From the NCBI GenBank assembly GCA_019400425.1, contig JAFREE010000051.1, positions 1 through 64,000 on the forward strand: a stretch of 64,000 nucleotides of DNA, read 5' to 3'. Position 1 is the stretch's first letter; every line of letters begins with the position of its first letter. Source of the stretch: Hymenochaete sp. R1. Taxonomy: Eukaryota > Basidiomycota > Agaricomycetes > Hymenochaetales > Hymenochaetaceae. The notes beneath the pieces are model-generated. The model saw only the letters and a program-made list of their open reading frames with translations, was not told the DNA's origin and searched no databases. Below, in pieces: positions 35,331 through 41,075 of the stretch. A program made the translations under genes and the position numbers.

Positions 35331-35333
35331 ATG

Positions 35334-35366
35334 CACTGCGTTCAAGGGGGTGCTACACCAATTCGG
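35334..35366 (+). repeat. Left terminal inverted repeat
   Basis: It begins CACTGCGTTCAAGGGG, then G, then TGCTACACC. It matches the complement of 38162-38194 at 30 of 33 positions. ATG precedes it. Confidence 0.88.
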
Positions 35367-35795
35367 AGGATGTTGTGTACATGATCTGTGCCGATCTACC
35401 CCAATTCCGTGCCTATCCCGGCTAGAATGCATGGTGTAGGTTAGTGTAGCCGAAAAACACCGAAGATACATCAATTTGTGATATACTGAGTCACGCGACT
35501 TCACCTAGTTTGGTGTATGTAATGTAGTTTGAGTTGTTATGGGTATATAATGTTGTAGTCAGGGTACACCAATTTGAACATCACGTGTTGTGATTGACGC
35601 CGGGGCTTTTTTAGACTCTAGATTTGTATCTGTTAAGTCTCTTCCCTCTTCCCGTACAGTAGCCGCACCTATATGTCTATACATGCCAGGATCGACGGAC
35701 TCTGGTTAGCGACATATATGAGCCCCAAGTTCAACATCGCGTCGTCGTCTTTTTCTTCACGCCACCACCACCACCACCACCATCCCAGCGACGAA

Positions 35796-36525
35796 TCGAC
35801 AGAATATCTTCGACATCAACGATGAGCGTCGCTACCGTATTTTCTACGACAAGAAGATGTCCCAGGAGGTGCCCGGAGACTCCCCCGGCGATGAGTTCTT
35901 ACATCTTCCGTATCTCTGGCGGAAACGACAAGTAGGGCTTCCCTATGAAGCAGGGTGTCCTCCCTCACCGTGTCCGCCTCTTGCTCTCGTATGGTCATTC
36001 ATGTTACCGTATCCGTCGTGCGGGCGAGCGCAGGCGCAAATCTGTGCGCGGATGCATCGTCGGTCCCGATATCGGTGTACTTGCTCTCGTTGTCGTTAAA
36101 CAGGGCGAGAGCGACTTACTGGATTGACCGACACTGTTCTCCCGAAGCGCCTTGGACCAAAGCGCGCAACGAAAATCTGCCGCTTCTTCTACCTTAGCAA
36201 AGAGGATGACGTCCGGAAGTATGTTGTCCGTCATGAAGTGAAGAGCCAGAAGAATCCGGAGAAGAAGCCTTATACGAAGGCGTGAGTATTCTCTCTGCCT
36301 TCTTAAATCTACTCATATCGGACGGTGATCCTCTTTCTTAAGCCCCAAAATCCAGCGCACCGTCACCCCAATACGTTCGCAATGTCGCCGTCATGTCCGT
36401 GCACTTAAGACTCGTAGAATTGACCGCCAGAACGAGCAGAAGAAGGAATACCAGTACGTACCAGTTACGCTTGTCTGTAGAGCCCTCCTGGCTAACAGGC
36501 GCAAGGAAAAGGTCTCATCGCATAC
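35796..36525 (+). pseudogene. Ribosomal protein S6 (eS6) copy 1, broken
   Basis: The translation in shifting frames follows eS6 from near residue 15 onward: [59 protein letters not shown] and DDVRKYVV. Damage seen: a few bases lost just after the GDEF segment shift the frame, a TAG replaces the expected Gln codon before GFPMKQG (near 35934), and one base is missing near 36114. The first codons of the gene are absent. Two introns remain (about 36283-36342 and 36454-36487) with GT-AG borders, so the copy came from genomic DNA rather than mRNA. It lies inside the CACTA-type element. Confidence 0.85.
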
Positions 36526-36686
36526 CTTAAACTCGCATACTTACTGATTCTAACCATCTCAAAAACAGGGCTACATCTGCTTAAACTGTCCTTTCCCGTT
36601 CCCTTATATCGACTTCTTCCTTCTCCCCCATCGCGTGTTCGTTCCGCCTCCCACTCGCCTCACGTCGACCCCTCTCCTCCCTCATT

Positions 36687-37211
36687 ATGGCCGTATGGAA
36701 AGTATCATATGCCCACCAATGTATGTCATGTCCTTATCTGTTTTCGCTTCCAAAATTGTATGGCATGGCGCGGCCGATGTCAGCTAATGAAGGCGAGCCC
36801 CAGGCTTTTGCGTTCGATTATTTCCCGGGCGTCGTAGATCCTGACTTTGCGATCCAGCCAATCCCATGGCTGCCCCCTCTGAGCAGGTCATCCTCGACAG
36901 GCTCGCACTCTAGCAGTCATTCTCGCTCGAGCATTGGCTATTCGCACGTGGCCACCGGTGGCGTTAATGGCGCAACGCAAGTCCCCGACATGTGGCAAAA
37001 CGTTTCGGACGCGAGCTTCCATCCATTTCCGATAGGTGCTGAGGATGCGTGGTGTCTCCCTTCCCTCGACAACACAACGGGCCTGGTAAAATGGCCATCC
37101 TTGCACCCGCGGTCCACTTTAGAGAATAGAGGTCGCTCTCGCGCACTCCCTCAGATGCTTTCTCCTATTCACGCGAAAGAAGTTGGTGCATCTTCGTCGT
37201 CGTTCCATTGA
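36687..37211 (+). CDS. 174-codon frame inside the mobile element, unrecognised
   Basis: An intact frame runs from ATG at 36687 to TGA at 37211, between the two S6 copies. It is preceded by about 100 nt of C/T-rich, promoter-like sequence. The product is Ser/Pro/His-rich with no membrane segment; [20 protein letters not shown] and [14 protein letters not shown] can be read. It does not resemble a transposase. It may be a captured fragment of another host gene, with its own leader, or chance. The first codons could instead contain an intron. Confidence 0.4.
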
Positions 37212-37277
37212 TGATAAAAATTTATTTATCTATTTAGGTTCTCTTTATCATTGCATGTTATACCCCCACACCCTTTC

Positions 37278-37770
37278 GGGCGAGAGCGACATCCGTGGAT
37301 TGACCGACACTGTTCTCCCGAAGCGCCTTGGACCCAAGCGTGCAACGAAAATCCGCCGCTTCTTCAACCTTAGCAAAGAAGATGACGTCCGGAAGTATGT
37401 TGTCCGTCGTGAAGTGAAGAGCCAGAAGGACCCGGAGAAGAAGCCTTACACAAAGGCGTGAGTATTCTCTCTGCCTTTTCAAATCTACTCATATCTGATG
37501 GTGACCCTCTTTCTTAAGTCCCAAAATCCAGCGCCTCGTCGCCCCAATCCGTTTGCAACGTCGTCGTCACGTCCGTGCACTCAAGGCTCGTAGAATCGAC
37601 CGCCAGAATGAGCAGAAGGAGTATCGGTACGTACCGTCATCGAAGCAGTTTTTTTGACATTGTTTCTGACTTATGCTTGTCTGCAGGACTCTCATGGTTA
37701 ACAGGTGCAAGGTGAAGGTCGCGCCGCAGAAGGCGCACGGCACGAGCAGAAGGAATATCGATATCGGTAC
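37278..37770 (+). pseudogene. Ribosomal protein S6 (eS6) copy 2, 5'-truncated
   Basis: This copy begins abruptly at GGGCGAGAGCGAC, matching copy 1 from 36103, so the two are offset by 1175 bp. The frame is intact through [34 protein letters not shown] and KKPYTKA. An intron (about 37459-37518) and PKIQRLVAPIRLQRRRHVRA follow. After the second intron the product drifts (NRCKVKVAPQKAHG), and a repeat of the GAGCAGAAGGARTATCG segment appears near 37745. The first half of S6 is missing, so it cannot make the ribosomal protein. It is less damaged than copy 1. Confidence 0.85.
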
Positions 37771-38161
37771 GTGCATCATGCAACGAGTCGTTCATGCATG
37801 TGGTTAGGTAAGGTAGTGATTACTAGTATTAGATAATAGGAAGTTGTATGTAATACTAGTATGGACAATATTATATAATGCATTTTCCAAAAAAAGCGTC
37901 TGAATAAGAGAGGTGTCCGGGGGCAAGGAATAAAATATAAAGGATCAGCAATTATATTAGCCGAGAAACTACACCAATCTACACATAACTACACGAAGTT
38001 GCGTACATAAAGGGCACCGATCTACACGAAATTGGTCGAGATCATGTTTCTCGCGGTTGGTGTAGAAGCTGAATCTCGAATTTCCATAGTTACGCCAATT
38101 TCGTATAGCTTTGTGGTAGTCGCGTGTACATCGGGTGTATTTAGCCTACACCCGCGTGTAC

Positions 38162-38194
38162 ACCAATCGGTGTAGCATCCCCTTGAACGCAGTG
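38162..38194 (-). repeat. Right terminal inverted repeat
   Basis: On the minus strand it reads CACTGCGTTCAAGGGG, then A, then TGCTACACC. The ATG duplication follows at 38195-38197. Confidence 0.88.
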
Positions 38195-38197
38195 ATG

Positions 38198-38764: not shown

Positions 38765-41075
38765 ATGGGAAATACGTCGTCCTCGCACTCAAACCGCTCA
38801 ACAGCGAACTCAAGCACAGACCCGCCCTCCCGCTCAGGCTCTCGCAGGTCTCGCTCTCTACACCACCGCGACGCTCCTGCGCCCCCGTCTTCAACAGCCT
38901 CCTCCGCAAATCATTCTCCGAACCGCGCAGCGTCAACAGCAGCCGCTGGCGACGCACAAAACTCTTTGGCTCCTGACGATAACAGTAGCAAGTCTCACCA
39001 GCAGCAGCAGCAACAGGCGGCTACCCCAAAACGCCTCCCGCATCGGTCCCTTCGGACCAAGAAAAAGTCCCTGGAGCTCCCAGACCTGGCTCTCGCTCTC
39101 ACACCACCCGTCCCCTCGGGCCCGGGCGGCCCAGGTATGGCGGGCCCTTACCGTCGTCCGACCGCCTCGTCCCCCATCGCGATCCCAATCAAGCCGAACG
39201 GATCATCAGCAACAGAGGAACCCCGTCTTAAAACCATCCCGACAGAAATAAACGTCAACGCAGACGCCGATACGAATGTCAATGGTCAACAACAGCAACA
39301 GCAACAGCAACAGAAGTACCCGCCTATGGCGGAGGTCATTGTCCAGCAGCCGTCAGAGACGGCGGCGACGACACGCGGGCGGGGCCACTCGCATATACGC
39401 GGGGGTCCGCTCCCGTACAACTCGACGAGGTCTTTCACGGGTGCGTCTGCGCGAGGTCGAGCCCTGCCGAGTTTCGTCCTCCGCGCCCAGGCCACGAACA
39501 TGTTCTCCCCTGAGGATATCCACAGTAGCATACCCCTTGCCCTACGCAAGGCGGAGCCGAGTGGTGGTGGTGGTGGTAGTGGAGGAGGAGGTGAGGAGGC
39601 CGAGTTGGAGGGAAGTGGAAGACGTGGAGGTGGTGGTGCAGAGGATGATGGGGAGGGAGTGGAGAGCGGAGCCGTGGCCAGGGATTCGAAGAGAGATTCG
39701 ACGGGGGAGAAGCTGCCTGCGCAGGCGTGTATCGTATGGAGGGGAGGGGGCAAGAGTGTGTTTCTTATGCGCGCGGGAGATAATAACTGGAAGGGGCGCC
39801 GGCCTTTGGATTACGAGTGAGTATATAAATATGCGTCTCATTCATAAAGGGAGAGAGAGAGAAAGAGAGGGAGCATTTTCGCTGCAACCGATTCTCTCCT
39901 CTCCCTCTCCTCTCCTCTACTCCACATTTCTCCCTCTTTTCTCCCGTCTGCTGCTCGCTGCTCACCCCCTTCTCTTCTACTTCACCCTGACCCTGTTTGC
40001 TCACTTCCCATTCCCACATCTCTTCTTACTCACTCTTCTCGCTGATATGGCGATTGCTCTGTGCTCACCTCTTCGTTTCCCCTTCAGCGAAACATCGAAC
40101 CAGTGGTCAACATGGGTCCCCCTCCTCCCCGGGACCCACCACATCCGCTTCCTCGTCGACGGCGTAGCCACGATCGCCGAAGACCTACCCACGACCGTGG
40201 ACGACAACGGCTCCCTCGCCAATTACGTCTCCGTCCCCATCTCCTCCTCCACGCCTCCCTCCACAAGCGTCCAAGTCATTCCCGCCATACCGCGCGACCG
40301 TGACCGCGAGCACGACCAGACTCTAAACCAAACTCAGACCCAGACGGCGGCGCCGACGACAGGGAACGGCAACAGCTTCTTCGCGGATGCCGAAGCGCAG
40401 AAGGAGGCAGAGGACGGCGCATGGACGGATAAAGTCCCCTGGCAACTCGAGTGCGCGGCCGAAGAGGAGGAGCAATGGCTCAACCACTCCCATTCGCACG
40501 CGCATAGCCACCAGCATCAGATCCCGCCACCTCAGCACCCGCAGGCACCGTCCCTCCCTCGGCATCTGGAGAAGCTGATCATGAACCAGAGACCGCCGAC
40601 GGGGGCGAGGGCGGTTGGAGGAGGAGCGGCGGCGGGGGCGGGGAAGCCGGGTGGGAGCAGCACGGCGCTGTTTGGGGATAGGGGCTCGTTGCCCGTCACC
40701 ACCGCGAGCGGGACGAACCTCAGCGCGACCGCGAGCAAGAAGTCTGGTTCTTCCGCCGCTGCTTCATCGTCCCCGTACACGAAGCTGAACGACGCTCCGA
40801 CGGGGGTGCACGCCGGGCCCGGGTTGGCGGACGACGGGAGCGTGTTACCGGTCCCCTCGCATGTGGTGCTCCACCATCTCGGGACGAGCGCGATACGGAA
40901 CGGGGTGTTGGCTGTTGCGGATACGGTGCGGTATCGAAAGAAGGTGCGTTGGTTTGTGCGTTTGGGTCTTTTCTTTTTCCACCTGCGAAACTGTTTGCTG
41001 TTTACTGACGGCTTCGTTTTTTTTTTTTGCTTTTTCATTCAGTATATTACGACCATTTATTACAAGCCGACGTGA
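38765..41075 (+). CDS. SNF1/AMPK beta subunit (Gal83/Sip2 type), 646 aa, three exons
   Basis: Exons are 38765-39816, 40088-40943 and 41043-41075 (647 codons). The start MGNTSSSHSN fits the N-myristoylation pattern MGxxxS, as in Gal83/Sip2; an upstream in-frame Met at 38630 would destroy it. A glycogen-binding CBM48 lies near residues 322-390 (IVWRGGGKSVFLMRAGDNNW, PLLPGTHHIRFLVDGVA). The C-terminal ASC domain follows: VPWQLECAAEEEEQW, LPRHLEKLIMNQRPPTG, VPSHVVLHHLGTSAIRNGVL and the last exon YITTIYYKPT. It scaffolds the kinase that derepresses genes when glucose is low, partly through CreA/Mig1. The protein is longer than usual because of Gln, Ser and Gly-rich inserts. Intron 1 (271 nt) is unusually long here. 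Confidence 0.92.

Follow-up and report, generated by a model that had tools for sequence, protein, structure and literature searches.

Capture of gene fragments by cut-and-paste transposons with terminal inverted repeats has been documented in plants, animals and some ascomycetes, with most descriptions coming from plants. Plant Pack-CACTA and other Pack-TYPE elements, as described by Gisby and Catoni (2022, PMC8903248), are like the element reported here in being non-autonomous, in having CACTA-type termini and target-site duplications, and in being multi-copy. Near their ends, CACTA elements are described as carrying arrays of short repeats in direct and inverted orientation (PMC8978399). 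In basidiomycetes, the CACTA element CNIRT6 has been caught moving in Cryptococcus neoformans (PMC12810828). In ascomycetes, transduplication by hAT and Tc1/mariner elements is reported from Pyrenophora (PMC3538342). The titles and abstract beginnings of the open-access literature that we surveyed contain no fungal Pack-CACTA or Pack-TYPE element; one fungal paper cites these terms in its references only.

Here we analyze an element in a 64-kb window (the whole stretch of DNA under study) and its relatives in the same assembly. We conclude that it is very probably a CACTA/EnSpm-type DNA transposon that moves by cut-and-paste, is non-autonomous and has Pack-TYPE composition, with host DNA from two loci.

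Structure of the element

The features of the element are given in Table 1. The terminal inverted repeats begin with CACTGCGTTCAAGGGG and pair at 28 of 30 positions (93% complementary) across a spacing of 2801 nt, such that the element runs from CACTG to CAGTG. The site context is gaagATG on the left and ATGatag on the right, a 3-bp duplication. The original prediction described near-perfect inverted termini of 33 bp, with 2861 bp between them and an ATG flanking both ends. The inverted repeats are present and ATG was found directly outside each of them, but the repeats are 30 bp long (33 fits 30 bp plus the flanking ATG), and 2861 bp is the length of the entire element rather than the distance between the repeats.

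Table 1 Features of the element and its flanks (window coordinates; a dot marks a feature without strand)
Feature	Position	Strand	Remarks
Whole element	35334..38194	.	2861 bp; terminal inverted repeats and ATG duplication; 92%-identical second copy
Left copy of 3-bp target duplication, ATG	35331..35333	.	Adjoins element outside
Right copy of 3-bp target duplication, ATG	38195..38197	.	Adjoins element outside
Left terminal inverted repeat	35334..35363	+	30 bp; CACTG start
Right terminal inverted repeat	38165..38194	-	30 bp
Left subterminal array, TACACCAAT-like 9-mers in both orientations	35354..35573	.	5 matches, <=1 mismatch
Right subterminal array, same TACACCAAT-like 9-mer	37970..38174	.	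5 matches
Captured piece 1, from the eS6 gene (coding and intron sequence plus 3' flank)	35772..36780	+	83% to C258
Captured piece 2, copper-fist transcription-factor gene: last 143 codons and 69 bp past the stop	36777..37280	+	C57
Captured piece 3, eS6 again (3' half, intron sequence included)	37278..37740	+	90.7% to C258 over 463 bp
Right end of element, no donor found	37741..38194	.
Chimeric 174-aa ORF	36687..37211	+	31 eS6 3'-flank codons fused in frame with copper-fist C-terminal 143 codons and stop

Within the window, the exact 16-bp terminus occurs at two sites, which are the two ends of the element. When up to three mismatches are allowed there are four matches, against 0.47 expected and a maximum of two in 100 shuffles, so chance is a poor explanation. 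CACTG conforms to the CACT[A/G] inverted termini that define CACTA/EnSpm elements. Short repeats in both orientations clustered near the ends are a further trait of this group, and the element has them: 18 matches to TACACCAAT (at most one mismatch, both strands) are distributed as five in the left 240 bp, five in the right 240 bp, one in mid-element and seven in the other 61 kb of the window. The total of 18 was reached in 3 of 100 shuffles; it is the clustering of these 9-mers at the ends, not their total count, that is the telling feature.

Two further observations concern the window as a whole. It holds seven exact inverted 16-mer pairs spaced 200-10,000 bp apart, the ends of the element included, compared with 0-2 in 20 Markov controls. 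An ORF with the AMPK beta-subunit domains AMPK1_CBM and AMPKBI (window 39276-41072) starts about 1.1 kb downstream of the element, and the insertion may therefore sit in the upstream region of that gene.

A family of insertions in the assembly

The original prediction proposed a genome search for sibling termini and named the lack of any other copy as evidence against it. Searched across the assembly (27.8 Mb, 336 contigs), the exact 16-bp terminus was found at 10 places, contrary to that refuting outcome: the two window ends, one on contig C94, and seven at the ends of contigs C8, C64, C91, C113, C138, C282 and C308. At these seven, the contig ends within 210 bp, leaving 74-208 bp of element, probably because short-read assembly breaks at near-identical repeats. 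Left-type ends number four (window, C94, C138 and C282). The six right-type ends (window, C8, C64, C91, C113 and C308) are all distinct and, given one right end per insertion, there are at least six insertions.

The 3-mers outside the left ends on C94 (AAC), C138 (ATT) and C282 (AAT) recur at right-end contigs, which pairs C94 with C8, C138 with C64, and C282 with either C91 or C113 (ambiguous). The chance of three matching 3-mers is 0.0005 when calculated with random window 3-mers and 0.004 with AT-rich words. The right end on C308 adjoins ACC and has no partner. A variable 3-bp target-site duplication, as in CACTA/EnSpm elements, is thus seen as ATG in the window and probably as AAC, ATT and AAT elsewhere, the latter three of the four being obtained by pairing contig ends on 3-mer words alone. 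When the flanks of the four contig pairs with equal 3-mers were joined, no recognisable gene was found across the site, and we take the insertions to be intergenic; a 96-codon open frame crosses the C94/C8 join.

The C94 copy is 92% identical to the window element over query positions 4-2253 (2242 bp, to the contig end) and has a different flank. It contains the same captured pieces and both of their inner joins; therefore, the composite transposed. The left flank of this copy (L035 1441-1500) holds GTGTAGTAAATACACCC, which resembles GTGTAGGCTAAATACACCC in the right end of the element, and BLAST of that flank against the element's right end gave no match at E 0.01.

Fragments of two host genes

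The interior includes sequence of two genes, encoding ribosomal protein eS6 and a copper-fist transcription factor. Ribosomal protein S6 sequence had been recognised in the original prediction, which made no mention of the copper-fist gene, the second eS6 piece, the chimeric ORF or the subterminal repeats. The profile PF01092 (Ribosomal_S6e) matches one element ORF with an E value of 1.4e-19; eS6 was also found by translated search. Source loci exist outside the element on C57 (96%) and C258 (83%), and the termini are absent from the examined stretches of both. The copper-fist piece aligns to C57 without gaps over 504 bp at 96.2% identity. Its source ORF there is 503 aa long and the Copper-fist domain lies in the ORF just upstream; we take the two ORFs to be one copper-fist gene across an intron.

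The reading frame of piece 1 is interrupted by stops and indels. Piece 3 holds 33 bp of intron that are missing from piece 1 in both copies of the element, and it is doubtful that a piece which alone keeps this stretch is a tandem copy of piece 1. The retention of introns indicates that DNA was copied, not a spliced transcript. At the two inner joins, ATGT and GGG are common to both parents (4- and 3-bp microhomology).

A Pfam scan of all 16 ORFs of at least 60 aa touching the element (minus-strand ORFs without their first codon) found no transposase, as the original prediction had stated. Ribosomal_S6e was the only match above its cut-off, and four weak matches fell below theirs. The element thus shows the Pack-TYPE features of a missing transposase, host-gene fragments with sources outside, and transposition of the composite. 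The earlier Pack-CACTA reading is upheld by the CACTG termini, the 3-bp duplication, the multi-copy family and the host-gene fragments from two loci.

The eS6 gene in the assembly

Sequence of eS6 was found in the assembly only on C258 and in the element copies (three matches to the Pfam profile, eight in the protein search). The frame on C258 (L036 2063-2572) is open. It was compared with 19 named Agaricomycete eS6 proteins, hand-picked from 120 listed of 7355 matches among 8000 scored, with a twentieth protein, P0002, left out. C258 differs at 13 of 107 positions that are invariant in the 19, lacking the six residues RKSVRG and having seven other invariant-site changes. Its identity to the 19 is 78.8-85.9%, which overlaps the 79.4-94.3% found among them (median 86.9%). 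The element pieces keep the common residue at those C258-altered sites that they cover. Their own invariant-site changes number 7 of 83 (C94), 1 of 45 and 1 of 38, counted on readable stretches only, with stops as X and gaps uncounted.

C258 was set aside as the intact donor on the grounds of its altered invariant sites, the six-residue deletion among them, at which the element pieces keep the common residue where they cover them. The overlap in overall identity, the open frame of C258 and the invariant-site changes in the element pieces themselves speak against this judgement. Since it is only 83% identical and looks damaged, C258 is at best a sister or a decayed form of the donor. We think that the donor would have been an intact eS6 gene not represented in the assembly, C258 being probably a decayed duplicate. 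The lack of an intact gene would leave room even for the unlikely case that the eS6 locus itself was affected by the element family. Among the matches listed, the closest named eS6 relatives are from Coprinellus, Amanita and other Agaricomycetes; this fits the basidiomycete host named in the original prediction.

Probable order of capture and proposed mechanism

Relative to C57, the copper-fist piece has six changes common to the window and C94 copies, and 12 and 11 private ones. The six common changes place its capture before the copies split, and probably only shortly before. In piece 1, 980 columns compared with C258 contain 61 common changes and 30 private to each copy. The age of the eS6 capture is uncertain because part of the 61 common changes lie in C258 itself; judged from these counts, it is probably but not certainly older than the copper-fist capture. 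Piece 3 is 89.3% identical between the window and C94, compared with 93.3-95.2% for the other segments, and mosaic conversion is one possible reason for its higher divergence.

We propose that the element has kept the signals needed in cis (CACTG termini and subterminal array) and that a Tnp2-type transposase from another locus would mobilize it in trans. DNA would have been captured first, probably, from the eS6 gene, and later from the 3' end of the copper-fist gene on another contig. The joins suggest repair of a break inside the element, during which synthesis jumped between templates at 3-4 bp of microhomology. Once assembled, the composite moved, as is evident from the joins shared with a second copy in another flank and from the 3-bp duplications. 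With captures probably of different age in one element, order and mechanism can be read from the joins, and the genome is small enough to resequence.

Transposon class and candidate transposases

Transposase profiles matched the genome 10 times for Tnp2 (over cut-off), 16 times for Plavaka and twice for KDZ. The first 10 bp of the terminus, CACTGCGTTC, occur at 53 sites versus 43 for the control, none of them near the ten Tnp2 matches. With up to three mismatches, the terminus has 188 matches genome-wide versus 134 for a reversed-pattern control, and among the approximately 100 matches listed none is near Tnp2. None of 29 transposase loci (L048-L076, mostly with about 1.5 kb on either side and further on C194) resembles the element. 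In 28 of these (L048-L075, about 1.5 kb on either side) there are five inverted pairs of 13 exact bases, none with a duplication of 2, 3, 4, 5, 8 or 9 bp. CACTGCG or CACTACG is present in many of the transposase loci, and in none does it extend into the element terminus. Within the stretches covered by these searches, no autonomous element with the termini of the window copy was found.

Beside a Tnp2 ORF on C194 lies a 379-bp element (L076 6293-6671, equal to C194:19292-19670) with 30-bp inverted ends starting CACTACGGGG that pair at 29 of 30 positions, and with the target duplication TGG. Such a pair is suggestive of CACTA-type movement here. By itself, CACTACGGGG is hardly more frequent than the control (21 versus 20), and the pattern CACTACGGGG followed by GTTCAA yielded nothing. 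CACTACGGGG also occurs 67-77 bp from the starts of C23, C120, C131, C233 and C311, as if another repeat family had broken the assembly there.

Other superfamilies differ from the element in their ends or duplications. The target of PIF/Harbinger elements is the 3-bp TWA, to which ATG, AAC, ATT and AAT do not conform. Helitrons are without terminal inverted repeats or target-site duplications. A hAT duplication of 8 bp (5-7 in variants) is absent, the element having 3 bp. PlavakaA elements are described with TGT..ACA ends and a 2-bp duplication, PlavakaB with CATCA..TGATG ends, and Zisupton with an 8-bp duplication (PMC12730594); the element has neither kind of Plavaka terminus, and the 8 bp of KDZ (Zisupton) are absent from the window site. 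With its CACTG termini, 3-bp duplications and subterminal repeats, the element matches the CACTA type, of which CNIRT6 is an example.

A chimeric reading frame

The chimeric ORF that spans the join between the eS6 flank and the copper-fist piece is uninterrupted in the C94 copy as well. When 5.8 billion proteins were searched (lengths 0.55-1.75 times the query), 55 candidates included a single relative: P0001, a protein of 162 aa that is 99% identical over 93% of the query (2 differences in 162). P0001 is encoded on a 14.7-kb contig with sources labelled jgi and lgn. No Pfam domain was found in the chimeric ORF.

Between the window and C94 copies, this frame has a dN/dS of 0.28; of its 19 changes, 10 are synonymous, versus 5.8 expected (P = 0.034). 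Substitutions number 19 in 436 positions, compared with 126 in 1786 for the rest of the element (P = 0.04). There are no indels versus 11 elsewhere in the element (P = 0.14), and the chance of zero stops among the 19 changes is 0.59. These signals may be read as hints of selection only.

Alternative explanations

Several other accounts of the element's origin were weighed. Segmental duplication or assembly error, in place of transposition, could be suspected where seven of ten termini lie so close to the ends of contigs, and a contig end also truncates the C94 copy, the assembly being unreliable there; we consider this extremely improbable, since the termini are clean, the sequence beyond them differs from site to site, 3-bp duplications are present, and a complete and a partial interior share one composite arrangement. 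If the element did transpose, its mover might have been Plavaka or KDZ, which the genome also contains, rather than a Tnp2/CACTA transposase. Plavaka is related to CMC, and its duplications can be 2 or 3 bp long (PMC12730594), and its matches and those of KDZ are at hand in the assembly, but the ends or duplications described for Plavaka and Zisupton in the same source differ, and CACTG ends with variable 3-bp duplications match the basidiomycete CACTA element CNIRT6 (PMC12810828), which makes such a mover distinctly improbable. The manner of capture could also have been that of the model published for Arabidopsis Pack-CACTA, in which complementary ends are lost from a pair of adjacent elements and the intervening DNA comes to lie inside (PMC13317346). 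That model would be expected to leave locus-contiguous DNA; here, however, the sequences of two contigs are joined directly at 3-4 bp of microhomology, with eS6 on both sides of the copper-fist piece, and we regard it as rather unlikely. A CACTA/EnSpm element of Pack-TYPE, composed of DNA from two loci, is the reading that we retain.

A different question is whether this transposon carries a new gene rather than being a parasite with debris, that is, whether the chimeric ORF is a working gene under selection. The frame is open in both copies, P0001 is nearly identical, and the dN/dS value and the lower substitution rate point in this direction; against it, all P values are weak and uncorrected, the absence of stops and indels is compatible with chance by the tests above, gene conversion with the donor could yield the same pattern, and the ORF has no Pfam domain. 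We consider a working gene unlikely, if somewhat less so than capture by neighbouring elements. The fuller proposal, that a fungal Pack-CACTA element built and spread a selected chimeric gene made of a 31-codon eS6-flank leader and a copper-fist tail, would be a degree less likely again.

Comparison with known systems

Some plant Pack-TYPE elements hold genic material from more than one locus, as does the element described here, which differs from the plant Pack-CACTA elements of that source in its Agaricomycete-like fungal host and in termini that begin CACTG and not CACTACAA (PMC8903248). In contrast to the plant model of fused neighbours, the joins here suggest template switching. Animal Pack-TIRs similarly show microhomology at many joins and include multi-copy cases with distinct target-site duplications, but the cases compared here are hAT and Tc/mariner elements of animal hosts (PMC8277862).

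In fungi, a close counterpart in its ends is CNIRT6, likewise from a basidiomycete, with CACTG inverted repeats (24 bp) and variable 3-bp duplications; unlike the element here, it is about 7.5 kb long and has its own transposase, and the description consulted makes no mention of captured gene fragments (PMC12810828). EnSpm elements of Puccinia are also from a basidiomycete, with a 3-bp duplication and an acquired gene, but what they carry is a TET/JBP dioxygenase gene along with a transposase (PMC12730594), whereas the cargo here is host-gene fragments, with no transposase. Helitrons of the mushroom Pleurotus ostreatus are likewise DNA transposons that have captured genes, but they are rolling-circle elements (PMC4289320). 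A housekeeping gene, that for histone H3, has also been transduplicated in fungi by hAT elements, in Pyrenophora (PMC3538342) and in Pseudocercospora (PMC6710886). These hosts are ascomycetes, the duplication in P. fijiensis is 8 bp, and the H3 sequence there is taken to be a transcript or retrocopy (PMC6710886), whereas the element described here keeps introns. To these systems the element adds a fungal CACTA case with intact ends, target duplications, and source loci for both genes.
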